From Myxococcales bacterium (GTDB taxonomy: Bacteria > Myxococcota_A > UBA9160 > SMWR01), in NCBI GenBank assembly GCA_029881215.1, contig JAOUNA010000009.1, forward strand, positions 1-38,940: 38,940 bases of DNA, written 5' to 3'. Both the position numbers and the translations under genes were made by a program. Positions 25,594-38,940 of this stretch are shown piece by piece (within the stretch, counting starts at the first letter, position 1; every line of letters starts with the position of its first letter). The notes under the pieces were generated by a model. The model had not been told where the DNA came from and ran no database searches. It worked only from the letters and a program-made list of their open reading frames with translations.

Positions 25594-26994
25594 ATGTCCG
25601 AACCGCGCCGCCCGCAACGCCGCTCACGCGTTCCCACGGGGCGGCTGGAGCGTCTCGTGCGCATCGGATGGCTCACCGGCGAAATCGCGCTGGGGGGCGC
25701 CGCCGAGGGTCTGCGTCGCATCGGAGGTGGCGCGCCGAGCCCGAGCAGCGTGTTCCTGACCGGCGCCGCGGGGCGCCGTCTGGCCAGCCGCCTGTCGACG
25801 ATGCGCGGCGCCGCCATGAAGCTCGGCCAGCTGCTCTCCCTCGAGGCCGACGACCTGCTGCCGCCGGAGGTCACGGAGGCGCTCTCGGTGCTGCGCGCGG
25901 AGGGCGATGCCATGCCCCGCTCGCAGCTGCGGCGCGTGCTGGGTCGGAACTGGGGCAAGGGCTGGGAGCAGCGCTTCGCCTCCTTCGACTTCGAGCCCAT
26001 CGCGGCCGCGTCGATCGGGCAGGTGCACGCGGCCGTGACCCGCGACGGCCGCGAGCTCGCGCTCAAGATCCAGTACCCGGGCGTGGCGAGCAGCATCGAC
26101 AGCGACGTGGACAATCTGGCGGCGCTCCTGCGTCTGGCGCGCGTCCTGCCCGGCGACGTGGACTTCTCGCTGGTGCTCGCCGAGGCGAAGCACCAGCTGC
26201 GGCGCGAGGCGGACTACCAAACCGAAGCCGAGCAGCTGCGCCGCTACCGCGCGCTGCTGTCCGATGATCCCGAGTTCGTGGTGCCGCGCGTGCACGACGA
26301 CTTCACGACCTCGCGCATCCTCGCCATGGACCGCCTGCGCGGCGTGCCGCTCGAGGATGCCTGCGGCAGCGACCACACCGATGCGCGCCGCGACGCGCTG
26401 TGCGCGCTGCTGCTCCGCCTGGTGCTGCGCGAGCTCTTCGAGTTCGGCTTCATGCAGTCGGATCCGAACTTTGCCAACTATCTGCTGCTTCCCGACGGCC
26501 GGGTTGCGCTGCTCGATCTCGGGGCGGGCTACGAGATTCCGCCGGCGCTGTCCTCCGGCTACGCGCGCCTGTTCCGCGCCGCCGCCGACCAGAACCGCGG
26601 CGAGCTCAAGCGCGTGGCGCAGGAGATCGGCTTCATCGCGGCTTCGGACACGCCGGCGCAGGCGGAAGCGATCGTCGATCTGATGCTGCTCGCCACGGAG
26701 CCCCTGCAACACCGCGGTGTCTACGATTTCGGCGCCTCCAAGCTGCCCGCGCGAGCGCGCGACGCCGGCACGTCGCTCGTGTTCAAGCAGGGCGTGTGGC
26801 GCCCGCCGCCCGCCGCCACGCTGCTGTTGCAGCGCAAGCTCGGCGGCACCTTCCTGGTCTGCGTGCGCCTGCGCGGCCGCGTCGATGCCCGCGCGCTGCT
26901 CGAAGAGGCGCTGGCGCGGCGCGCGTCAGACGAGGCCCGCGCGGCGGCGCCAGCGCGGGCGAGCGACGGCGATCGGGCCGAGGCCCCGTTCTGA
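25594..26994 (+). CDS. ABC1/UbiB (AarF) family atypical kinase
   Basis: Protein of 466 residues with the ABC1 hallmarks: KxGQ motif (MKLGQLLS), Ala-rich loop in place of the P-loop (AAASIGQVHAA), the ion-pair Lys (ALKIQYPG), the catalytic-loop equivalent QSDPNFANYL and the metal-binding DLG. Family members act as ATPases that support ubiquinone or other prenyl-lipid metabolism at the membrane (UbiB, COQ8). There is no C-terminal transmembrane pair as in UbiB proper, so it is a soluble or peripheral subtype. Its divergent neighbour is a lipid acyltransferase, consistent with a lipid role. Substrate unknown. Confidence 0.92.
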   Translation: MSEPRRPQRRSRVPTGRLERLVRIGWLTGEIALGGAAEGLRRIGGGAPSPSSVFLTGAAGRRLASRLSTMRGAAMKLGQLLSLEADDLLPPEVTEALSVLRAEGDAMPRSQLRRVLGRNWGKGWEQRFASFDFEPIAAASIGQVHAAVTRDGRELALKIQYPGVASSIDSDVDNLAALLRLARVLPGDVDFSLVLAEAKHQLRREADYQTEAEQLRRYRALLSDDPEFVVPRVHDDFTTSRILAMDRLRGVPLEDACGSDHTDARRDALCALLLRLVLRELFEFGFMQSDPNFANYLLLPDGRVALLDLGAGYEIPPALSSGYARLFRAAADQNRGELKRVAQEIGFIAASDTPAQAEAIVDLMLLATEPLQHRGVYDFGASKLPARARDAGTSLVFKQGVWRPPPAATLLLQRKLGGTFLVCVRLRGRVDARALLEEALARRASDEARAAAPARASDGDRAEAPF

Positions 26995-28390: not shown

Positions 28391-29850
28391 GCCGTGCGCG
28401 CCGACTTCGCGCCGCGGCTCTGCTGCTGCTGTCCGCCTGCGCACTCGCCTGCGGCGGTGGCGGTACGACCCAGGCGGCGCCGCGCCGCGAGGTCATCCTG
28501 CGCACCGAGGCGGACGACGAGCGGGTCGGCGAGCAGACCGCCATGCAGGTCGGCGGCGCGATGGGCTTCGTCGAAGATGCCGCGCTCGGGGCCTACGTCG
28601 ACGCCGTCGGCAAACGCCTGGCGCGCTACGCGCCCCGCGGCGGCTTCCAGTACCAGTTCAAGATCGTGGACCAGGACGTCCCGAACGCCTTCGCGTTGCC
28701 CGGCGGATACATCTACGTGTCGCGAGGCCTGCTGATCATGGCCAACTCGGAGGACGATCTCGCCGGGGTCCTCGGCCACGAGATCGTCCACGTCGCGGCG
28801 CGGCACGCTGCCGCGCGCCAGGGCGTCATCCAGGGCATGCCGGGCATCGTGCAGGCGCTCGCCGGCGGAACCATCGCCGAGTACGGTCGCGATCAGGAGC
28901 GCGAAGCCGATCGCCTCGGGCAGGGACTCGCCGGGCTCGCCGGCTACGATCCGCAGGGACTCGCGAACTTCCTCACCAGCCTCGAGTTCCAGGAGCGGCT
29001 CCAGCTCGGCGGCTCGCGCCTGCCCCGCTTCTTCGACTCCCACCCCGCCACCGCCGAGCGGACCGCGTCGGCGTCGAGCCGCGCGCGCATGGTCGCCTGG
29101 CAGCGCGAGCCCGGGATCGCAAACGGTCCGGCCGGCTACCTGGAGAAGATCGAGGGCCTGGTGGTGGGAACAGGCGCCTCGGAAGGCGTGTTCCAGGGCA
29201 GCCGCTTCCTGCACCCCGAGCTCGACTTCACGCTGCGCTTCCCGCCCGACTGGGACACGCAGAACACGCGCGAGGCCGTGGGCGCGATCTCGCCACAGCG
29301 CGACGCGATGATCTCGCTGGCGCACGAAGCCATGGGGCAGGATCCGCGGCGCGCCGCCTCGGACTTCCTCGCGCGCGCCCGCGAGCAGGGGCTGCGCGTG
29401 GACAGGACGCAGCCGGTCGTGCTCGCCGGGATGAACGCGTTCCGCGCCGAGGGGCACGCGCTGGCATCGGGCGCCGCGCTGCCCGTCGAGCTCACCTGGA
29501 TCGCGCACCGGGGCGCCATCTACCGCATCACGGGCGTGTCGAGCCCGCGCGCCGGAACCCGCTACAGCGGCGCGTTTCGCAGCGTGGTGCGCAGCTTTCG
29601 CCCGCTCAGCGCGGAGGCGCGCCAGAGCATCCGGGAGAGCCGCCTGCGCATCGTGCCGGCGCGCGCGGGCGAGACGCTCCCCGAGCTCAGCGAACGCACC
29701 GGCAACTTGTGGAACGTGCAGGAGACGGCGGTGATGAACGGGCTCTACGCGAACGCGATCCTCGCATCCGGCCAGCGGGTGAAGGTGGCGCTGCCCGAGC
29801 GCTACGGCGCGCTGCGGCGCTCCGAGGCGTACGCGTCATCGGAGCACTGA
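28387..29850 (+). CDS. M48-family metalloprotease lipoprotein with LysM-like tail
   Basis: Exported zinc protease of 487 residues. The N-terminus (LLLLSAC) fits a lipoprotein signal, so it probably sits in the periplasm on a membrane. The zinc site is HEIVH at 131-135 with the third ligand Glu171 in EREAD (ExxxD to Asp175). After the peptidase domain (about 30-230) comes a PsbP/DcrB-like beta region (about 270-410). A C-terminal LysM-like segment follows (about 418-475, GETLPELSERTGN, ILASGQRVKVALP). The layout resembles BepA/YfgC-like quality-control proteases with extra domains. GTG start overlaps the stop of the preceding frameshifted gene. Confidence 0.9.
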   Translation: MSRARRLRAAALLLLSACALACGGGGTTQAAPRREVILRTEADDERVGEQTAMQVGGAMGFVEDAALGAYVDAVGKRLARYAPRGGFQYQFKIVDQDVPNAFALPGGYIYVSRGLLIMANSEDDLAGVLGHEIVHVAARHAAARQGVIQGMPGIVQALAGGTIAEYGRDQEREADRLGQGLAGLAGYDPQGLANFLTSLEFQERLQLGGSRLPRFFDSHPATAERTASASSRARMVAWQREPGIANGPAGYLEKIEGLVVGTGASEGVFQGSRFLHPELDFTLRFPPDWDTQNTREAVGAISPQRDAMISLAHEAMGQDPRRAASDFLARAREQGLRVDRTQPVVLAGMNAFRAEGHALASGAALPVELTWIAHRGAIYRITGVSSPRAGTRYSGAFRSVVRSFRPLSAEARQSIRESRLRIVPARAGETLPELSERTGNLWNVQETAVMNGLYANAILASGQRVKVALPERYGALRRSEAYASSEH

Positions 29851-29875: not shown

Positions 29876-30781
29876 TCAGAACTCCGCGGCCGAGACCCGG
29901 TGCTCGCCGCTGCGCGTTTGCCTGATGGTGCTGAAGCTGCTGTCGGTGTACTCGTGGCAGGCGCCCGTGCAGTCCTTCAGCTCCGCCACGGTATACAGGA
30001 TGGGCGGCGAATCGACCTTCTTGTGAGCGTCGGGCTTGAAGTCGGTCGCGTGGCACGCGGCGCAATCGGGCGCATAGCCCGGGCTCGGCCACGGAACGCT
30101 GTCGCGGTTCGTGGTGTGGCACGCGGTGCAGTCGAGCGCGCGGCGATGATCGCCGGAGTAGCCGGCGGAGGCGTGGCGGAACGTCGACGGACTCCAGCGT
30201 CTCGTGTCGTGGCAGGCGCCGCAGTCGCTGGTCGTCACGAAGTGCCCGGTGTCGATGCCCGTCGCCGTGACGCCGTCGTGACAGCCCGCGCAGGTCCCCG
30301 TGATGTTCGCGTGGTCGAAGCTCGCCGGCGTCCACGCCAGCGTCGAGTGGCAGGACCCGCAATCCCCGTTGGTCAGGATGTGATCGAGGGGCTTGCCCGT
30401 CGCCTGCATGCCGTCGTGACAAGTGGCGCAGCGGCCTTCGACGCCCGAGTGATCGAATACGGCGCGGCTCCAGATCACCGTGTCGTGGCAGTCATCGCAG
30501 CGATTCGAGCTGGAGACGTGGTCGCGGGTCTTCTCCGTCTGGGCGCGCAGGCCGGAGCCGTCGTGGCAGAGCTCGCAGCGGTCGGGTGTTCCCGCGAACA
30601 GGCCCTCGGCGTGGCACGATTCGCACGGCTCCCTGCGGTGCGAGCCGGTCAGCGGAAAGCGGGTCGTCGAGTGGTCGAACGCCGCGCCGCTCTGCGCCCG
30701 TGCGGGGTCGCTCCAGAGCAGAGAGCCGGCGAGCGCGCAGCACCCCAGCAGGAAACGGATCGAGACGCATCGCGTGTTCAT
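29876..30781 (-). CDS. Multiheme c-type cytochrome, nine CXXCH plus one CXXXCH
   Basis: Exported cytochrome of 301 residues with a signal peptide (about 1-30, ending DPARAQ). I count nine CXXCH haem motifs (CESCH, CELCH, CDDCH, CATCH, CGSCH, CAGCH, CGACH, CTACH, CAACH). A tenth element near the C-terminus, CTGACH, has one extra spacer residue. Units of about 30 residues of the type C..CHD...W....FDH recur, like the cytochrome c7/c3-type families. The C-terminal SGEHRVS segment is a feature I recall from related deltaproteobacterial proteins. The start forms an ATGA overlap with the 21-haem gene, so the two are co-translated. It should carry electrons in the periplasm or at the outer membrane. 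Confidence 0.93.
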   Translation of the reverse strand: MNTRCVSIRFLLGCCALAGSLLWSDPARAQSGAAFDHSTTRFPLTGSHRREPCESCHAEGLFAGTPDRCELCHDGSGLRAQTEKTRDHVSSSNRCDDCHDTVIWSRAVFDHSGVEGRCATCHDGMQATGKPLDHILTNGDCGSCHSTLAWTPASFDHANITGTCAGCHDGVTATGIDTGHFVTTSDCGACHDTRRWSPSTFRHASAGYSGDHRRALDCTACHTTNRDSVPWPSPGYAPDCAACHATDFKPDAHKKVDSPPILYTVAELKDCTGACHEYTDSSFSTIRQTRSGEHRVSAAEF

Positions 30782-32373
30782 CGCATGCTCCTCAGCTCTC
30801 GCCACGACGTATCGACGTGACACTGGCCACAGCTGCGCCCGAAGGAGCCTCGATGCACGTCGTCCTCGGTGTGGCACGTCTCGCAGCGGCGCGACTGCTG
30901 CACCCGGCCGCGCGTCGGCTCGCTGTGGCACGCGCGGCAGGCGAGGCCCTCGTGGGCTCCGTGCAGGGAGAAAGACGTCTGCGTGTCGTGATCGAAGCTC
31001 CAGACGCGCCAGCTGTTCGGCACGTGACAGCGCCCGCAATCGTCGCCGAGCCGAGTCTCGTGGTGGTCGTCAGTGGCGTGACACGAGGAACAGTTCGGAT
31101 CCGCGTCCGCGAAGCGCTGGCTGCGATGGCAGTCCTCGCACGAGACCAGCGCGTGGAGCCCGAGCAGGGGGAATTTCGTCAGCCCGTGATCGAATGACAC
31201 CTGGTCTGCCCACCCGCGTTCGTCGTGACACCCAGCGCAATCCCTGCCTTCCTGGCCCTCGTGCGCGTCGTCTGCTCGGTGACACGAGTAGCAGTTCATC
31301 GAGATTCGTTCTTTTCCGAGGGTTCCCTTGTGACATGCGTCACAACGCACCTCCCCGTGCAGCCCGCGCAGCGGGAAGCGGGTCTTTCGATCGTGTTGGA
31401 AACGGGAGGACTTCCACGACTGGCTGGTGTGGCAGTCGCCGCAGCGCGGCCCGTTGCGCCCGCGGTGGTCGTCGTCGAGGCGGTGACAGGTTCCGCACTC
31501 CAAGGGGAGCTTCTCGTCGAACGCATCCTGGCGGTGGCAGCTCCGGCACGCCAGCTCGCGGTGCGCGCCCGTGAGCGGGAAGCGCGTCTTCGAGCCGTGA
31601 TCGAAGCGCGTCTTCTTCCAGCTGACGGAGTCGTGGCAGTCCCCGCACGCCGCTCCGAGACGCCCCCGGTGGCTGTCGTCGATGCCGTGGCAGCTGGCGC
31701 AGGAGGTGGGCGTCTTCTTGTAGCGCTCGTTCACGTGGCACGCGGCGCACTGCACCTGCGCGTGGGAGCCCTTCAAGGGGAAGGCTGTGGCGGCGTGCTC
31801 GAAACGCGCCCGATTCCAGCTCGTCTCCTGGTGGCAGTCGCCGCAGGCCTCGCCGAGCCCCTGCCTGTGCGGATCGTCGTCGCGGTGGCAACCGATACAG
31901 GCCGAGGCCGCCTCGGAGAAGCGCTGCCCCGCCGCATGGCAGCGCTCACAGGTGAGGCTCGCGTGGGCGCCGCGCAGGCTGAAGTCGGTCTTGCGGTGGT
32001 CGAACGCATCGCGGTCGAGGCCGAGGACATCGGCCTCGCGCCCCTTGTGCTCGGTGTGGCAGTCGCGGCAGGCGACTCGATCCACATCCGTCAGCCGACC
32101 GTGATAGCCCCGTTGGCTCTCGAGATCCGCGCCGACTGCCTTGTGACAGTCCACGCACAGCTCGCGCTGCGCCTCGGCGCGCAGCGCCTGGTGGCAGCTG
32201 GCGCAATCGGCTTCGATCTTCGCGTGCCCGGCGATCACGGGGCCGGGCATCACCAGCGTCTTCCAGTCGCCGGCGCGCGCCGCGCTGGAGAGCAGCACGA
32301 CCGCGAGCGACAGGATTCGCCACCCCGCGCGGCGCAGCGACCGGCTTCGCGACCTGTGCGTGACACGGGACAT
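30778..32373 (-). CDS. Large modular 21-heme c-type cytochrome
   Basis: Exported cytochrome of 531 residues with a signal peptide (about 14-35, ending AARAGDW). I count 21 CXXCH motifs, one per 25 residues. The first three are in an N-terminal c3-like part. The other eighteen fall in six modules of about 60-66 residues, each with three haems and the frame FPLxGxH, C..CH, C..CH, DDxHxG, C..CH, W. Many extra His residues can serve as second axial ligands. Such strings form haem nanowires in known families. The gene begins next to the stop of the membrane cytochrome b gene (no gap) and its end overlaps the smaller cytochrome by 4 bases. No lipobox, so location outside the inner membrane is certain but the exact site is not. 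Confidence 0.95.
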   Translation of the reverse strand: MSRVTHRSRSRSLRRAGWRILSLAVVLLSSAARAGDWKTLVMPGPVIAGHAKIEADCASCHQALRAEAQRELCVDCHKAVGADLESQRGYHGRLTDVDRVACRDCHTEHKGREADVLGLDRDAFDHRKTDFSLRGAHASLTCERCHAAGQRFSEAASACIGCHRDDDPHRQGLGEACGDCHQETSWNRARFEHAATAFPLKGSHAQVQCAACHVNERYKKTPTSCASCHGIDDSHRGRLGAACGDCHDSVSWKKTRFDHGSKTRFPLTGAHRELACRSCHRQDAFDEKLPLECGTCHRLDDDHRGRNGPRCGDCHTSQSWKSSRFQHDRKTRFPLRGLHGEVRCDACHKGTLGKERISMNCYSCHRADDAHEGQEGRDCAGCHDERGWADQVSFDHGLTKFPLLGLHALVSCEDCHRSQRFADADPNCSSCHATDDHHETRLGDDCGRCHVPNSWRVWSFDHDTQTSFSLHGAHEGLACRACHSEPTRGRVQQSRRCETCHTEDDVHRGSFGRSCGQCHVDTSWRELRSMR

Positions 32374-33348
32374 TCAGTACACGTGCACCGCAAGCACGTG
32401 CACCGCGGCCGTGGCGAAGAGCAGGACGCAGAGCGGCAGGTGGAGCACGTGCCAGATGGCGAAGGCGCGTTCGTAGCCCGAGAAGCGCGCGACGCGCCGG
32501 ACGGCGGCGCCGTACTGTTCGAGTGCGCGCCGGGCGGCCCGCGGATGCAGTCCGAGCCGATCGGCACCCCGGCGCTGGGCGGTCAGGAGCGGACGCACGC
32601 TGCGCCACGCCCGGCGCACGGCGGCGCGTTCGATCCCTCCGGCGCGGAGAAAGCGCCAGGCGCCCTGCACGCGGCCGCTGGACGGTGTGAGCAGCCGGGA
32701 CTCGAGCTCGCGCAGGGTGCGGATGAGCTCCGGCGAGTGCTGCGCGAGGGCGCCGAGGGCGCCACGTCCATCCTGTGCGGCGGCGCGGATCTCGGCGAGC
32801 GTGGCGCGTCGCCCGTGGTACTCGTGGTGGATCCGGGTGTAGATGAAGCGCCCCGCGATGCCGCTGCCCGCCACGAGCAGCATGCTGACCAGTGCAACCG
32901 TCGAGTTGCGCGATCCGAGCTGGAAGTTCGCGTGCAGCAGGATGGCGGTGGGCCCGAGCAGGCCGAGCATCATGTGCACGAGAAACCAGCCGCGCAGGCT
33001 GCCTAGATTGCGCAGCGCCCGAATCCGCTTGCGCAGCGAGTAGAGCAGAAGAAGCGCCATCATGGCGAGGCCGGCGATGCCGAGTGCGTAGCCGACCCCC
33101 GACCTGGCCACGATCCAGTACTCGTCGCGCGCGAGCCAACCCGTCCAGAGCAGCAGCGCGCAGGCGATCCCCGTGCCGGCGAGGCTGAGCGCGAGCGCGG
33201 ACGCGCGCTGGCCCGGCGCGCGCGCGGGACGGGCGGGCGGCGCGACGGGCCCGTGCTGGCCGCGCGCGCTGCGCAGGGGCGGGGTGGATCGCGCCGCGGC
33301 TGCAGGCGTCGTTGCAGTCGTTGCGCGGGAGGCTTCGTTGCGCGGCAT
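32374..33348 (-). CDS. Ferric-reductase-like di-heme b membrane protein
   Basis: Integral inner-membrane protein of 324 residues. It has a Pro/Ala/Arg-rich soluble N-terminus, four hydrophobic helices, a polar loop of about 100 residues and a last helix. Two helices each carry His-X13-His: one in LVHMMLGLLGPTAILLH, one in LHLPLCVLLFATAAVH. This is the spacing that holds two stacked b haems in ferric-reductase/NOX and cytochrome b proteins. It has no FAD/NAD domain, so it probably takes electrons from quinol or from a partner. First gene of the cytochrome operon. The ATG at 33348 is chosen; an in-frame GTG at 33414 is also possible. No clear ribosome site for either. Confidence 0.8.
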   Translation of the reverse strand: MPRNEASRATTATTPAAAARSTPPLRSARGQHGPVAPPARPARAPGQRASALALSLAGTGIACALLLWTGWLARDEYWIVARSGVGYALGIAGLAMMALLLLYSLRKRIRALRNLGSLRGWFLVHMMLGLLGPTAILLHANFQLGSRNSTVALVSMLLVAGSGIAGRFIYTRIHHEYHGRRATLAEIRAAAQDGRGALGALAQHSPELIRTLRELESRLLTPSSGRVQGAWRFLRAGGIERAAVRRAWRSVRPLLTAQRRGADRLGLHPRAARRALEQYGAAVRRVARFSGYERAFAIWHVLHLPLCVLLFATAAVHVLAVHVY

Positions 33349-33430
33349 CTGAAACCCGGGGTGAGGGGCGACCCTTCGCTTCGATCGTCCGGAGCGGAAC
33401 TGCACATCGGACACGCCGTGCCCGCAGGAT

Positions 33431-33446
33431 CGTGACGAAGATCACG
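33431..33446. promoter_or_regulatory. CRP/FNR-superfamily-like operator between the two redox operons
   Basis: CGTGA-N6-TCACG is a perfect 5-bp dyad with the spacing of the CRP-family consensus TGTGA-N6-TCACA. It lies 83 bases upstream of the cytochrome b start and 131 upstream of the barrel gene start, in a 228-base divergent gap. Inverted repeats TCGGACA/TGTCCGA (33407-33413, 33463-33469) share nearly the same centre. A regulator of the CRP/FNR class, which often responds to oxygen, NO or energy state, is a plausible binder. No promoter elements could be fixed. Confidence 0.5.
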
Positions 33447-33576
33447 CGTTGGGCGGTTCCGCTGTCCGAAATTGCCCCGGGCGCGGCTCGGACGCGACGG
33501 GACGCGCACCCGACGGGTAACAGGGCATGTGGCGAAATCCGGTGTCTCGATGCTGCTTGCGGCACAGGAGCGTCGC

Positions 33577-35628
33577 GTGAGCGGCGGCCGGATGGGCTGC
33601 GCCGCGATCCTGGTTGCATGCGGGCTGCTCGTGTGCAGCGCGGCGGCGCGTGCGCAGCATGCGGCGACGCGCCTGCTCTCCTCGCTGTCCGTGCACGAGA
33701 GGCGCGGCCGGGTCGAGGTTCAGATCCACCTGGGTGTGCCGGTGCGCTACCTGGGGCACACGCCCACCGCGCAGAGCGAGCGTTTCGTGCTCGAGATCGC
33801 TCCCCTCGCGGCGGATTCCGCGGGCGTCCCGGAGATCGATACCCGCGGTGTCCTCACGCTGTCCAACGCGGGGAGCCTTCCCCTCGACGCAGTGCGCGCG
33901 GACGGCCCGGCGGCGGCGCCTCGCCTCGAGATCCGCTTCTCCCGTCCGGTCGTTGTCGAGATCGGCCAGGCCGACGATCCGCGCAGCATCGTGGTGTCGA
34001 TCGATGCCGACTCGCTGCAGGGGCGCGACGCCGCGCGCGGCGAGCGCCTGCTGCGCGAGGCCCAGGCCGCCTTGACCGCGCAGGAGATCGACCGCGCCAT
34101 CCTGCTGTGTACCTCGGCGCTGGCGCTGGAGGAAGGCCCCCACACGCCTCGGGCGCTGGAGCTGCTGGGCGTTGCGCGCGAGCGGAAGGGTCAGTTCGCG
34201 CAGGCGATCGCGCAGTACCGAACCTATCTGGAGCGCTATCCCGAGGGCGAGGACAGCGAACGCGTGCGGCAGCGCATGCAGACGCTGATCAGCGCGAGAG
34301 ATGCTCCCGCGAGGCCGCTGCGCCGCGCGGAGCGACCCGCGCGCGCGACCGATTACGACATCTTCGGCAGCGTCGCCAGCTACTACACGCGCGCCGGTCA
34401 GATCGGCGGAGACTTCGGCGGTCGACTGCTCGACTCGTCCCAGCTGGCCGACGTGTACCTGTCGGGCCGGCTCCGCACGCCTTCGCTCGAGCTGCGATCG
34501 CGCGTCGCGGGAAACTACCGCTTCGACTACCGCGACCAATCCACCGCCGACGATGCGCGCATTCGCGATCTGAGCGTGGAGTTGATCCAGCGCAACGGGC
34601 CCCTGCGCATGACGCTCGGGCGGCAGTCGCGCAACCGGGGCGGCGTGCTCGGGCGCTTCGACGGGCTCGCTCTCAGCTACGCGCTGAGCGACTCCGTCGA
34701 GCTCGGCGCGGTCTCCGGCTTTCCGCTCGACACGGGCTTCTCGAACGCCATCGACACCGACGTCGTGCTCGGCGGCCTGCGTCTCGGCCTGCGCGGGCCC
34801 GACGAGCGCGTGAGCGGAGAGCTGTACGGCATCTACCAGGACGGGCCCGCATCGACCGATCGCGCGGCGCTCGGCGGAGAGCTGCGCTACCGGGGCGACT
34901 GGGGTGTGGCGGGCGGATTCGTCGATTACGACGTCTACTTCGCGAGCCTCAATCGCATGTTCCTGGTCGGCAACTGGAACGCGACGCCCGCACTCGATCT
35001 GAACGCGCTCGTGCAGTACGGGAACGCGCCCTTCCTCACCTCGCGCAGCGCCCTCATCGGCTCGGGGGTGACGTCGCTCGACGATCTGCCCGGGAATCCC
35101 GACGCCGCTGCGGTTCGGGATCTCGCGCTCGACCGGACCGGCAAAGCCACCAATTTTGCCATCGGAGGCAGCTATCGCTTCCTGGATGTGTACCGGTTCA
35201 CGCTCGATCTCAACGCCGGTCGCTTCTCGGGTACGCGCGCCCTGAACGAACAGGACGCGACGGGATTCGAGTTCTCGTACCTCGCTCAGGTATCGCGCGA
35301 CGCGCTATTCCTGAGCCGGGATTCGCACACGCTGGGCGTGCGGGCTTTCGACGGCGAGAGCGCGCGCAGCGCCGGCGTGTACTGGCTCGGACGCCTGCCG
35401 CTCTCGGATCGGCTGTACGTGAATCCGCGCCTGCTGGCAGAGTTCCGCGATGCGGCGGCGGGAGCCAATCAGTGGCTGCTGACCCCCGCGCTGCGTGTCG
35501 AGTACCGCCTCGATCAGCTGATCTTCGACCTGGAGGGTCGCTACGAGGTGCGCCTGCTGTCGACGCCACGGGTTTCCGACACGGGATCGTTCTACAGCAT
35601 CGACCTGGGGCTTCGCTATGAGTTCTGA
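33577..35628 (+). CDS. Outer-membrane beta-barrel with AMIN-like and TPR-like N-terminal parts
   Basis: Exported protein of 683 residues. Signal peptide at about 5-27 (ending AARAQ). A beta-rich segment (about 30-145) resembles AMIN-type domains. A TPR-like helical stretch follows (about 150-235, for example ALELLGVARERKGQFAQAIAQY). From about 255 to the end it has alternating strands and short turns, closing with the aromatic LGLRYEF expected for barrel insertion. A porin or conduit sheath is likely. The GTG at 33577 is set by AGGAG 6 bases upstream; ATG at 33550 is in frame. It diverges from the cytochromes and its end overlaps the flavoprotein gene by 11 bases. I know no exact family name. 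Confidence 0.8.
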   Translation: MSGGRMGCAAILVACGLLVCSAAARAQHAATRLLSSLSVHERRGRVEVQIHLGVPVRYLGHTPTAQSERFVLEIAPLAADSAGVPEIDTRGVLTLSNAGSLPLDAVRADGPAAAPRLEIRFSRPVVVEIGQADDPRSIVVSIDADSLQGRDAARGERLLREAQAALTAQEIDRAILLCTSALALEEGPHTPRALELLGVARERKGQFAQAIAQYRTYLERYPEGEDSERVRQRMQTLISARDAPARPLRRAERPARATDYDIFGSVASYYTRAGQIGGDFGGRLLDSSQLADVYLSGRLRTPSLELRSRVAGNYRFDYRDQSTADDARIRDLSVELIQRNGPLRMTLGRQSRNRGGVLGRFDGLALSYALSDSVELGAVSGFPLDTGFSNAIDTDVVLGGLRLGLRGPDERVSGELYGIYQDGPASTDRAALGGELRYRGDWGVAGGFVDYDVYFASLNRMFLVGNWNATPALDLNALVQYGNAPFLTSRSALIGSGVTSLDDLPGNPDAAAVRDLALDRTGKATNFAIGGSYRFLDVYRFTLDLNAGRFSGTRALNEQDATGFEFSYLAQVSRDALFLSRDSHTLGVRAFDGESARSAGVYWLGRLPLSDRLYVNPRLLAEFRDAAAGANQWLLTPALRVEYRLDQLIFDLEGRYEVRLLSTPRVSDTGSFYSIDLGLRYEF

Positions 35629-36955
35629 CGCAGTGTTCACGGGTCTGGTCTACGTCGCACCGATGCTGGCGCTGTGCGTCCTGTACCTGTGGCGCAACGA
35701 GGCGCGCACGCAGAAGAACCTCGCGACGCTGAGCCGGGCGCAGCGCGAGGGGCTGACGGAGCCGCCCTCGCTGCATCCCCAGATCGACCCCAACCGCTGC
35801 CTCGGCTGCGCGACGTGCGTGGATGCCTGCCCCGAGCACGACGTGCTGGGACTCGTTCACGGCAAGGCGCAGATCCTGGTCGCCGCCAACTGCGTCGGTC
35901 ACGGGGCCTGCAAGGATGCCTGCCCGTTCGATGCGATCAGCCTCGTGATCGGAACCGAGCGCCGCGGCGTCGAGATTCCACGGCTCGATGCGAAGTTCGA
36001 GACGAATCTCCCCGGCCTCTTCGTCGCCGGAGAGCTCGGCGGGATGGGACTCATTCGCAACGCGATCACCCAGGGCAGCCAGGTGATCGAATCGGTGTGC
36101 CGGCGCGGAGGCTCCTCGGGCCGCTTCGACTACGACGTGATCATCGTGGGCGCCGGGCCCGCCGGCTTCGCCGCATCGCTCTCCGCGCGCGAGCGCGGAC
36201 TTCGCGCGCTGACCCTCGAGCAGGAGCAGCTGGGCGGAGCGGTGGCGCACTATCCCCGGCGCAAGCTCGTGCTCACGGCCCCCGTCGTGCTGCCCAGCGT
36301 GGGTCGCATCGATCTGCGCGAGACCACCAAGGAGGCGCTGCTCGCGCTCTGGATGCGGGTCGAGGCCGACGTGGGTCTCGGCATCCACTACCGCGAGCGG
36401 GTGGAGCACATCGAACGCACCGGCGGCGGCTTCCGCGTGACGACGCAGCGCGCCGCCTACACGGCGCGCTCCGTGGTGCTCGCCATCGGCCGGCGCGGCA
36501 CGCCGCGCAAGCTCGAGGTCCCGGGAGAGGAGCGCAGCAAGGTCGTCTACCGGCTCAGCGACGCCGCACAGTATCGGGGTCTGCACACACTCGTGGTCGG
36601 TGGTGGCGACAGCGCGATCGAGGCCGCCTGCAGCCTGGCCGAGGAGCCCGGCACCACCGTCACCTTGTCGTATCGCGGCGCGGCGTTCAGCCGCGCCAAG
36701 CCGCGCAATCGCGAGCTCGTGAGCCAGGCCGCGGCGGCCGGGCGCCTCCAGGTGTGGCTCGCCTCCCAGGTGCGGGAGATCGCCGAGTCGAGTGCGCACA
36801 TCGAGATCGCCGACAATCTGAAGGAGATTCCGAACCAGGCGGTCTTCGTGTGCGCGGGCGGCGTGCTGCCGACGAGCTTCCTGCAGGCCATCGGGGTCGA
36901 GACGGAGACGCTCTACGGCCGGCCGCCCCGAGCGGCGGGGGGGAGCCCGAGATGA
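35618..36955 (+). CDS. Membrane-anchored 4Fe-4S/FAD NAD(P)-type oxidoreductase
   Basis: Protein of 445 residues. An N-terminal helix (about 6-26) anchors it in the inner membrane with the rest in the cytoplasm. A two-cluster ferredoxin domain follows (about 56-110): CLGCATCVDACP is canonical, while CVGHGACKDACP has His in place of the second Cys. A thioredoxin-reductase-like flavin domain is next: GAGPAG (FAD) near 178 and GGGDSA (NAD(P)) near 329. The usual CxxC redox pair is absent. I recall the His form (CxxHGAC) in related proteins, so it may be a normal family trait. It could feed electrons from NAD(P)H or ferredoxin to the envelope chain. The overlap with the barrel gene and ATGA with the next gene indicate one operon. 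Confidence 0.88.
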   Translation: MSSDAVFTGLVYVAPMLALCVLYLWRNEARTQKNLATLSRAQREGLTEPPSLHPQIDPNRCLGCATCVDACPEHDVLGLVHGKAQILVAANCVGHGACKDACPFDAISLVIGTERRGVEIPRLDAKFETNLPGLFVAGELGGMGLIRNAITQGSQVIESVCRRGGSSGRFDYDVIIVGAGPAGFAASLSARERGLRALTLEQEQLGGAVAHYPRRKLVLTAPVVLPSVGRIDLRETTKEALLALWMRVEADVGLGIHYRERVEHIERTGGGFRVTTQRAAYTARSVVLAIGRRGTPRKLEVPGEERSKVVYRLSDAAQYRGLHTLVVGGGDSAIEAACSLAEEPGTTVTLSYRGAAFSRAKPRNRELVSQAAAAGRLQVWLASQVREIAESSAHIEIADNLKEIPNQAVFVCAGGVLPTSFLQAIGVETETLYGRPPRAAGGSPR

Positions 36956-38940
36956 GCGGCGCGGCGAGCATCCGGCGCCGCGTCGCGCGCTCCGTCTGCG
37001 CGGTCGTGCTGATCGGTGCGTTCTGCGGCGCCGCGCGCGCCGGCCGCTTCGAAGACGGGCTCGCCGCCGCGAAGCTGCAGCGCTACGCAGAGGCGGCCGC
37101 GATCTGGCAGCCCCTCGCCCGCAAGGGGAACGTCGAGGCCCAGTACAGCCTGGCGGTCCTGTATCGGTCGGGCCGCGGGGTCGCCAAGGACCCGCGACGC
37201 GCCTTGCAGTGGCTCGAGCGGGCGGCGCGCGCCGGTCACGTGAAGGCGCAGTACGACCTGGCGCGGTGGTACGAGCGGGGCTGGGGCGTCAAGGCCGACC
37301 CCGACGCCGCGCGACAATGGTTCGAGCGCGCGGCCGCGCAGGGGCACGAAGCGGCGCGTGCGCATCTCGCCGAGCAGGCCGCCGGCTCGCCGCGCGTGCG
37401 TGCCGTGGGCGGGCGCGATGCGGAAGAGCGGGCGGCTCGCGCCGTGGACGACGGCGCAATCGACGGGTTGCGCGCGGCGCTCGCCGCGGGGGCGGACCCG
37501 AACGCCCGCGATCCGGGCGGGCGCACGCTGCTGATGCGCGCGGCGGCGGGCGATCGACAGGCCGTGCTGAAGGCGCTCCTGGCGGCCGGCGCAGATCCGA
37601 AGCTGCGCGATGCCTATGGCGACACGGCCCTGACGCTCGCAGCCCGCAACGGGCACAGTGCCAGCGTGCGCGCGCTGCTGGCCGGCGGTGCGCCGGTCGA
37701 TGGGCGCGACCGCATCGATCAGACACCCCTGATGATCGCGGCCTACAAGGGTCACGCGGCCACGGTCGCTGTGTTGCTGCGCGCCGGCGCCGATCCGAAC
37801 GCAGCGGACGCGGAGGGACGCCGGGCGCGGAGCCTCGCCGCAGATGCCGGTCACGCGGCGCTCGCCCGAAAGATCCGAGATGCCGGCGGGAAGTCGTCGC
37901 GCGCCGCATCCGCCGCCGCCGCACGCGACGCCAAGTGGCTCGAACAGCGCAGCGCGGCGGCGCGGGCGCAGGAGGTCGGGCCGCCGCTGGTGCTGGCGGC
38001 GGGGCGCGGGCGCGAGCCCATCGTGCGCTCGCTCCTCGCGCAGCGCGCCGACGTCGACGTGCGGGACGAAGAAGGCTTTACGGCGCTCGCGCGAGCGGCC
38101 TGGCACGGGCACGCTGCGATCGTCGGGCTGCTGCTCGATGCCGGGGCCCGCGTGGACCTCGCACCGCGGGATGGGCGCGGTCCGCTCGCACGCGCCGCGC
38201 AGGCCGGGCACGCGGACGTGGTGCGCGTGCTCGCAGCGCGCAACGGCCCGCTCGATGCAGCGGACGCCGATGGCTCGACGCCCCTCATGCTCGCCGCGCA
38301 GGCCGGACACGAGTCCGCGCTCAACGCGCTCCTGAAGGCCGGTGCGGATCGAGAGCGTGTCGATCGGGATGGCATGACGGCGCTCGCCTTCGCGGCTCGC
38401 GCGGGCCACACCGCCAGTGTGCGCGCCCTGCTCGAGGCGGGTGCCGATGCGTCGCGCGCGGATCGCGACGGCAATCCGCCCGCCTGCTGGGCGCAGGCCT
38501 CCGCTCGCCGCGCCGCGCTGGAGGAAATTCTTGGCCGCGGCGTTTCGCCGGAGACGCGCTGCGCCGACGGGGTGACGCTGCTCGGTCGCGCCGCCGCCGC
38601 GGGCGACGCCGACATGGTCGCCGCACTGCTCGAGCGCGGCGCAGAGCCCGACGCGGCGAGTGCGAACGGCAACGCGCCGCTGCTCCTGGCGGCCGACCGC
38701 GGCCACGCGGACGTGGTGCAGCTCCTGCTGGACCGCGGCGCCGTTCCCGATGCGCGCGGCTACCGCGGCAACACCGCACTGCTGCTGGCGTCGCAGCACG
38801 GGCACGCCGACGTAGTGCGACTGCTGCTCGAACGCGGCGCGCGGGCCTCGCTTCGCAATGCCGATCATCGCACGGCGGCCGAGCTGGCGGCGCGCGGGCG
38901 TCACGACGCGGTGACCGCGCTGCTCGACGGAGGGGCGAAG
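36952..38940 (+). CDS. Secreted Sel1/ankyrin-repeat protein (3' end outside window)
   Basis: At least 663 codons; the frame is still open at the window edge. The N-terminus is a basic, hydrophobic signal peptide ending ARAG. Residues about 25-140 carry about two Sel1 repeats (for example AQYSLAVLYRSGRGVAKDP). From about 160 on I count about fifteen ankyrin repeats of 33 residues (TPLMLAAQAGH, VVQLLLDRGA), with a break near 305-335. Such solenoids bind proteins. The location outside the inner membrane is notable, since most ankyrin proteins are cytoplasmic. ATGA overlap with the flavoprotein stop. Codon use looks like the neighbours, so recent transfer is not suggested. Partner unknown. Confidence 0.85.
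   Translation, partial: MSGAASIRRRVARSVCAVVLIGAFCGAARAGRFEDGLAAAKLQRYAEAAAIWQPLARKGNVEAQYSLAVLYRSGRGVAKDPRRALQWLERAARAGHVKAQYDLARWYERGWGVKADPDAARQWFERAAAQGHEAARAHLAEQAAGSPRVRAVGGRDAEERAARAVDDGAIDGLRAALAAGADPNARDPGGRTLLMRAAAGDRQAVLKALLAAGADPKLRDAYGDTALTLAARNGHSASVRALLAGGAPVDGRDRIDQTPLMIAAYKGHAATVAVLLRAGADPNAADAEGRRARSLAADAGHAALARKIRDAGGKSSRAASAAAARDAKWLEQRSAAARAQEVGPPLVLAAGRGREPIVRSLLAQRADVDVRDEEGFTALARAAWHGHAAIVGLLLDAGARVDLAPRDGRGPLARAAQAGHADVVRVLAARNGPLDAADADGSTPLMLAAQAGHESALNALLKAGADRERVDRDGMTALAFAARAGHTASVRALLEAGADASRADRDGNPPACWAQASARRAALEEILGRGVSPETRCADGVTLLGRAAAAGDADMVAALLERGAEPDAASANGNAPLLLAADRGHADVVQLLLDRGAVPDARGYRGNTALLLASQHGHADVVRLLLERGARASLRNADHRTAAELAARGRHDAVTALLDGGAK

Follow-up and report, generated by a model that had tools for sequence, protein, structure and literature searches.

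A conserved PCC3-type locus for probable trans-envelope electron transfer in a Myxococcota genome and its apparently overlooked flavoprotein partner

Six genes at the end of a contig from a Myxococcota genome raise the question whether they encode a new kind of trans-envelope electron-transfer system or a variant of a known one. The window, i.e. the whole stretch of 38,940 nucleotides that was analysed, is one entire contig (G000:C164) of a MAG of 3.43 Mb (89% complete, 5% contaminated). A sequence-only reading had proposed that the six genes lie in two divergent, tight operons and that their combination is undescribed. We found all six ORFs between positions 29876 and 38940, in two closely packed operons that diverge from a short intergenic region:

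29876..30781, minus strand: cytA, outer-type multiheme cytochrome c (MHC), 301 aa, nine CXXCH and one CX3CH, Sec signal
30778..32373, minus strand: cytB, PCC3-type MHC, putatively periplasmic, 531 aa, 21 CXXCH, Sec signal
32374..33414, minus strand: memb, predicted di-heme b inner-membrane protein (PCC3 IMP), 346 aa, start possibly further in
33415..33546, no strand: short region between the divergent genes, 57 bp when the longest ORFs are taken and more should the later starts apply
33472..35628, plus strand: barrel, PCC3 porin homologue, 718 aa, signal peptide, beta domain, TPR helices, 22 strands
35618..36955, plus strand: fad, membrane-anchored 2x[4Fe-4S]/FAD protein, 445 aa, one N-terminal TM helix, YpdA/TrxR-like FAD/NAD(P) domain
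36952..38940, plus strand: sel_ank, Sel1 and ankyrin-repeat protein, 663 aa or more, truncated at the contig end, signal peptide by inspection

In the minus-strand operon (memb, cytB, cytA) each gene touches or overlaps the next: the memb stop codon lies immediately 5' of the cytB ATG, and the overlap of cytB and cytA is of the ATGA type. In the plus-strand operon barrel and fad overlap by 11 bp, fad and sel_ank by 4 bp (ATGA), and the contig end at 38940 truncates the latter gene. Next to the locus the window carries an M48 family peptidase gene (28420-29850), convergent with cytA. An ABC1/UbiB-like kinase ORF lies elsewhere in the window (25594-26994, identified by eye from the translation). 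M48-like matches also adjoin PCC3-like genes in two other loci (L052, L140). In a close relative the six-gene locus is adjoined by ORFs that by eye resemble the Complex I membrane subunits NuoJ/K/L/M (L078:14800-21238).

Comparison of the locus with known conduits

PCC3 (porin-cytochrome complex 3) was proposed by He et al. in 2017 (PMC5566968) as a wire that carries electrons between cell interior and exterior. It comprises a porin, two MHCs, one of them extracellular (median 34 hemes) and the other periplasmic (median 21 hemes), and an IMP; examples are Slit_0867-0870 and Slit_1446-1449 of Sideroxydans lithotrophicus. The published IMP has about 300 aa and five TM helices, of which TM3 and TM5 each bear WX3HX13H and TM4 bears SGXXG. 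The signature of memb is identical: its five hydrophobic helices carry four His as two HX13H pairs, in the motifs W143X3H147X13H161 on TM3, SGIAG (184-188) on TM4 and W321X3H325X13H339 on TM5 of the predicted topology. These motif residues are invariant or nearly so across 21 homologues. Memb, present as a sole copy in the host genome, shares 36% identity (E=5e-44) with the IMP of a Gallionellaceae PCC3 locus (L085). Pfam/NCBIfam assigned no family to the IMP, Foldseek of the memb model against the PDB returned no meaningful match, and the Pfam matches of the IMP family were weak (DUF4405 in 14 of 21 members, best E 0.0022). PF01794 (Ferric_reduct, FRD/NOX) matched two of the 21 members (best E 0.018), below its gathering score. 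As far as sequence tells, the likeness of memb to the di-heme b proteins of the FRD/NOX type is one of motifs only.

The cytochromes were predicted to hold 30 or 31 haem sites, and this number is correct (21 in cytB; nine CXXCH plus one CX3CH in cytA). Shuffled proteins contained on average 0.1-0.3 CXXCH and at most three, far below these counts. CytB corresponds to the periplasmic MHC of PCC3 and its roughly 21 heme sites: nearly all close relatives have 21 hemes, and its match to the 24-heme MHC of L085 is strong (phmmer E=1e-204). In gammaproteobacterial PCC3 loci the large second MHC is homologous to the C-terminus of cytA, with single-sequence phmmer E values from 1e-15 to 1e-39 (L079, L081, L082, L084, L091, L100). 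A C-terminal module, PDCAxCHAxDF, is located 63-64 residues from the C-terminus in cytA and in five of six other motif-bearing cytochromes. By this module, common to second MHCs, cytA is a candidate for the extracellular MHC of PCC3. Second cytochromes can be much larger, with 62-70 CXXCH in loci of Thiodiazotropha, Rhodothermia, Saprospiraceae and Rubrivivax (L079:2193-7283, L110:3359-8344, L115:13089-18332, L096:1-7062). Further multiheme-cytochrome ORFs occur elsewhere in the host genome (G000:C40, C326, C17, C26, C30).

An AF2 model of the barrel (mean pLDDT 82.5; residue numbering begins at base 33547) predicts a beta domain at the N-terminus (44-153), followed by TPR helices (161-251) and a barrel of 22 strands (269-692). 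The Foldseek matches listed for this model were generic outer-membrane porins only (best 9.5e-10), so we assigned the barrel from its sequence relatives. It shares 24% identity over 739 alignment columns with the porin of L085 (E=2e-36) and 29% with that of L100 (E=2e-71). Model and homology together point to an outer-membrane beta-barrel porin as in PCC3, for which Pfam/NCBIfam hold no full-length family. The front of the barrel had been described as AMIN/TPR-like. Its TPR part is confirmed by Pfam matches and the modelled helices; AMIN, a fold-level impression, had no Pfam match.

Genes for all four PCC3 components are thus clustered in the window, with the porin gene on the opposite strand. 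On the IMP signature, the homology of memb, barrel and cytB to L085 and the cytA module we filed the core of the locus as PCC3. A categorically new system was rejected because the IMP signature matches PCC3. Judged by its sequence, the locus is a conserved PCC3 variant and not a new kind of system. The layers listed earlier, an Fe-S/FAD protein with a TM anchor, a di-heme b protein, two cytochromes and a barrel, are all present, and a putative role in trans-envelope electron transfer is well supported by these predicted components, by the homology to PCC3 and by conserved co-occurrence. The supposed lack of a description applies to part of the locus: the core of porin, two MHCs and HX13H IMP was described in 2017 (PMC5566968), while the flavoprotein is apparently new.

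The locus departs from published PCC3 in several respects. By its relatives the host belongs to the Myxococcota group; published hosts are Alpha-, Beta- and Gammaproteobacteria. The barrel gene is divergent from the cytochrome genes and shares an operon with fad and the Sel1/ankyrin gene, both absent from the published definition. The barrel has 22 predicted strands compared to up to 42, and the second MHC has 9/10 hemes compared to a median of 34 (10-35 in Gallionellaceae).

Other known systems fit less. PCC4 (He et al. 2017) likewise combines a porin, periplasmic MHCs, a five-helix HX13H IMP and extra redox/Fe-S proteins, but its MHCs have 4, 5 and 10 hemes, an outer MHC is absent and the IMP belongs to another family. 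MtrCAB, MtoAB and PioAB have the layout of outer-membrane barrel and multiheme cytochromes in common with the window, but differ by decaheme DmsE-family cytochromes, a 26-28-strand MtrB and the quinol dehydrogenase CymA. Membership in MtrAB/MtoAB/PioAB was rejected on a TIGR03508 score of 24 bits, far below the cut-off of 192, and membership in the Mtr, Omb and PCC4 types on heme numbers (21 and 9/10) and profile scores.

The flavoprotein and its linkage to the inner-membrane protein

Downstream of its anchor fad contains two ferredoxin motifs, C61xxC64xxC67xxxC71P followed by C92xxH95xxC98xxxC102P. Of 116 distinct sequences, 113 have His in place of the second Cys of the second motif (CxxHxxCxxxCP), and in the first motif the Cys at the matching position is often Ser, Thr or Ala. 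The second motif may hold a His-ligated [4Fe-4S] cluster. The FAD domain is related to YpdA, TrxR and ferredoxin-NADP reductases (E=2e-27 to PDB 7a76). Both Rossmann motifs are present, but the C-terminal FAD segment is located upstream instead of downstream of them: matches to YpdA end about 50 residues short of the YpdA end, and the segment missing there (ETNLPGLFVAGELGGMGLIRNAITQG) is found upstream of GxGPAG. A profile of the moved segment matched glutamate synthase small chains only, at their C-terminal FAD segment (E=2e-4). The permuted order is kept in 92 of the 93 fad ORFs in which both motifs were scorable, and by this order of motifs the FAD domain is circularly permuted. While fad shares the Rossmann FAD and NAD(P) domains with the YpdA/TrxR-like ferredoxin-NADP reductases (PDB 7a76, 2zbw), it differs from them by the N-terminal TM helix, the two ferredoxin motifs, the FAD segment in front of GxGPAG and a flavin domain that has no redox-active CxxC pair. 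From this relatedness NAD(P)H is the probable partner of fad; a specificity for NADH or NADPH is illegible from the sequence.

This flavoprotein goes unmentioned in the main texts of the original PCC3 study and of later work on PCC3 (PMC5566968, PMC10734462, PMC8788666, PMC12442390, PMC12016527). A literature search returned nothing relevant on a fad-type flavoprotein or on ankyrin proteins with multiheme cytochromes. A '4Fe-4S ferredoxin' of Gallionellaceae (cluster 360, 41 genomes; PMC10734462) was considered as a counterpart of fad. We did not equate the two, because the cluster was counted with one CX2-4CH motif, which is absent from the flavoproteins examined.

To characterize the conservation of the locus we used fad as query. 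A protein search found it in 45 of 148 related genomes, and cytB, memb, barrel and sel_ank recur in its 20-kb neighbourhoods. Eleven relatives carry all six genes (L029, L031, L034, L035, L037, L042, L043, L044, L048, L049, L050), a count that takes in only loci with cytA as a separate ORF. Named relatives at this distance are labelled Myxococcales or Deltaproteobacteria (L078, L083, L116), which places the host probably in the Myxococcota. Sel_ank follows fad at the identical place and on the same strand in about 20 related loci. Since it occurs in Myxococcota and in gammaproteobacterial loci (e.g. L077, L079, L084, L100) but in none of the Gallionellaceae loci examined, we regard it as accessory. 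Barrel and second cytochrome are found together with the 21-heme cytochrome in Myxococcota, Beta- and Gammaproteobacteria. Conserved synteny, which had been named as a test of the locus, is thus strong, and a lack of conserved co-occurrence is excluded. The Fe-S/FAD protein had been listed among the differences from known conduits. This view has to be reversed, as fad is a near-constant neighbour of PCC3 genes.

The linkage is closest between fad and the IMP. Among 80 genomes of the Sideroxydans family the IMP was found in 33, fad in 34 and both in 32 (Fisher p=8e-19, a value that overstates the case because related genomes are not independent). There, 28 of 35 fad genes are divergent beside an IMP gene, 196-1348 bp away. 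Over all fetched loci, an IMP shares the locus with 99 of the 120 fad ORFs, where the 120 include some loci that are one contig fetched twice. Moreover, 18 single ORFs contain both proteins, in opposite orders: 13 as FAD-IMP, mostly from Planctomycetes, and five as IMP-FAD, from genomes of the window's phylum. An automatic split of 12 and 6 was recounted since the label of L142 was an artefact of overlapping match ends. In L063, L064, L066 and L067 tblastn matches the flavoprotein only from beyond its would-be own anchor. Fusions in both orders are strong evidence, at the level of gene structure, that fad and the IMP are direct partners. The linkage has exceptions: IMP copies outnumber fad copies in some genomes, one genome (G234) has an IMP and no fad, and in three loci (L055, L057, L077) fad occurs with neither a multiheme cytochrome nor an IMP within the fetched flank.

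Two neighbourhoods hold additional genes. In the cultured Emticicia aquatica (L118:5961-9062) a CcsBA-type cytochrome c assembly protein precedes a run of IMP, fad, 23-heme and 43-heme cytochromes. In Methylotenera a gene for an exported thioredoxin/AhpC-like protein (L152:11347-11859) is located directly 3' of fad.

Possible electron path and its alternatives

A PCC3-type conduit joined to a cytoplasmic NAD(P)H-linked module is probably the right explanation of the locus as a whole. The exceptions to the linkage of fad and IMP and the poor fold and Pfam matches of the IMP count against it. Provided that the proteins bind the predicted cofactors, reside in the predicted compartments and form a complex, the membrane-anchored FAD/2x[4Fe-4S] protein would exchange electrons with cytoplasmic NAD(P)H. 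Electrons would pass from FAD via the Fe-S clusters to the pair of b hemes in the five-helix protein, by analogy to NAD(P)H oxidases and ferric reductases. Such enzymes also combine a cytoplasmic FAD/NAD(P)H module with two b hemes and HX13H pairs, sometimes in fused form. The window flavoprotein differs from theirs in belonging to the YpdA/TrxR type, with two [4Fe-4S] motifs, and not to the FNR type, and the acceptor in the window would be a 21-heme cytochrome. From this wire electrons would reach the outer-membrane barrel of 22 strands, and the 9/10-heme cytochrome would carry them through or past the outer membrane. The Sel1/ankyrin protein could be a periplasmic accessory for scaffolding or assembly. 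Net flow would more likely be outward, to an extracellular or periplasmic acceptor, than inward, since the membrane potential would assist the outward direction.

A different inner end was proposed for PCC3 by He et al. (PMC5566968), whose model links the IMP to the quinone pool. Applied to the window, an external donor such as Fe(II), Mn(II) or minerals would feed electrons through the IMP into the quinones, with fad as a side branch for NAD(P)+ reduction or maturation. That such di-heme b proteins can be quinone-active and that extra IMP copies exist without a fad of their own agrees with this model, as does the frequency of PCC3 among iron oxidisers (PMC10734462). The 18 fusions in opposite orders and the near-perfect co-occurrence instead favour direct transfer between fad and the IMP, and Fe(II) does not induce the PCC3 genes of S. 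lithotrophicus (PMC8788666). Additionally, many carriers, e.g. Emticicia and Arenibacter, are not known to oxidise metals. We consider a quinone-linked IMP unlikely here.

The same chain could also run in reverse, with low-potential external donors driving electrons inward to NAD(P)+. Every component could work in both directions, and autotrophic iron oxidisers carry PCC3. Such flow would, however, oppose the membrane potential, and from Fe(II) it would be uphill, since at neutral pH the Fe(II)/Fe(III) couples lie well above NAD(P)H. The host genome has heme-copper oxidase genes and one RuBisCO-family match that could speak for uptake but is weak and partial (56 bits) and may represent a RuBisCO-like protein, such that the direction of flow is not settled by these genes. 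Overall, inward uptake appears distinctly improbable. The chance is very slight that the cytochromes serve periplasmic reduction or electron storage with no link to the outside while the barrel exports or assembles something else: TPR-fronted barrels do occur in secretion (BcsC, PgaA, Slam) and the Foldseek matches listed for the barrel include no specific resemblance to MtrB, but the barrel and second cytochrome accompany the 21-heme cytochrome across three groups, and a periplasmic role hardly accounts for second cytochromes that reach about 70 hemes.

Consequences for PCC3

In published models the quinone pool is the inner end of PCC3, and experiments have until now traced just four genes. 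Fad appears to be a new, overlooked partner of this system. With a conserved flavoprotein of the NAD(P)H type that is co-inherited and in some cases fused, PCC3 gains a defined partner in the cytoplasm, and its coupling to the IMP becomes directly testable with a single purified fusion protein. Whether the NAD(P)H-linked reading extends to PCC3 in general we regard as evenly balanced. If so, these systems would be five-component, NAD(P)H-linked trans-envelope oxidoreductases in which fad, as a circularly permuted flavoprotein with a His/Cys [4Fe-4S] site, and a NOX-like di-heme b IMP form one enzyme, in some cases a single polypeptide. This enzyme would link cytoplasmic NAD(P)H directly to a wire of 20 to 70 or more hemes, and the quinone pool would be bypassed. 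The known range of PCC3-like modules now takes in Myxococcota, Bacteroidota, Acidobacteria, Planctomycetes and further groups, and many of these are not known for metal respiration. The flavoprotein partner could explain why PCC3 expression does not track Fe(II) oxidation, and the gene linkage suggests that the PCC3 wire is fed by NAD(P)H instead of membrane quinones.
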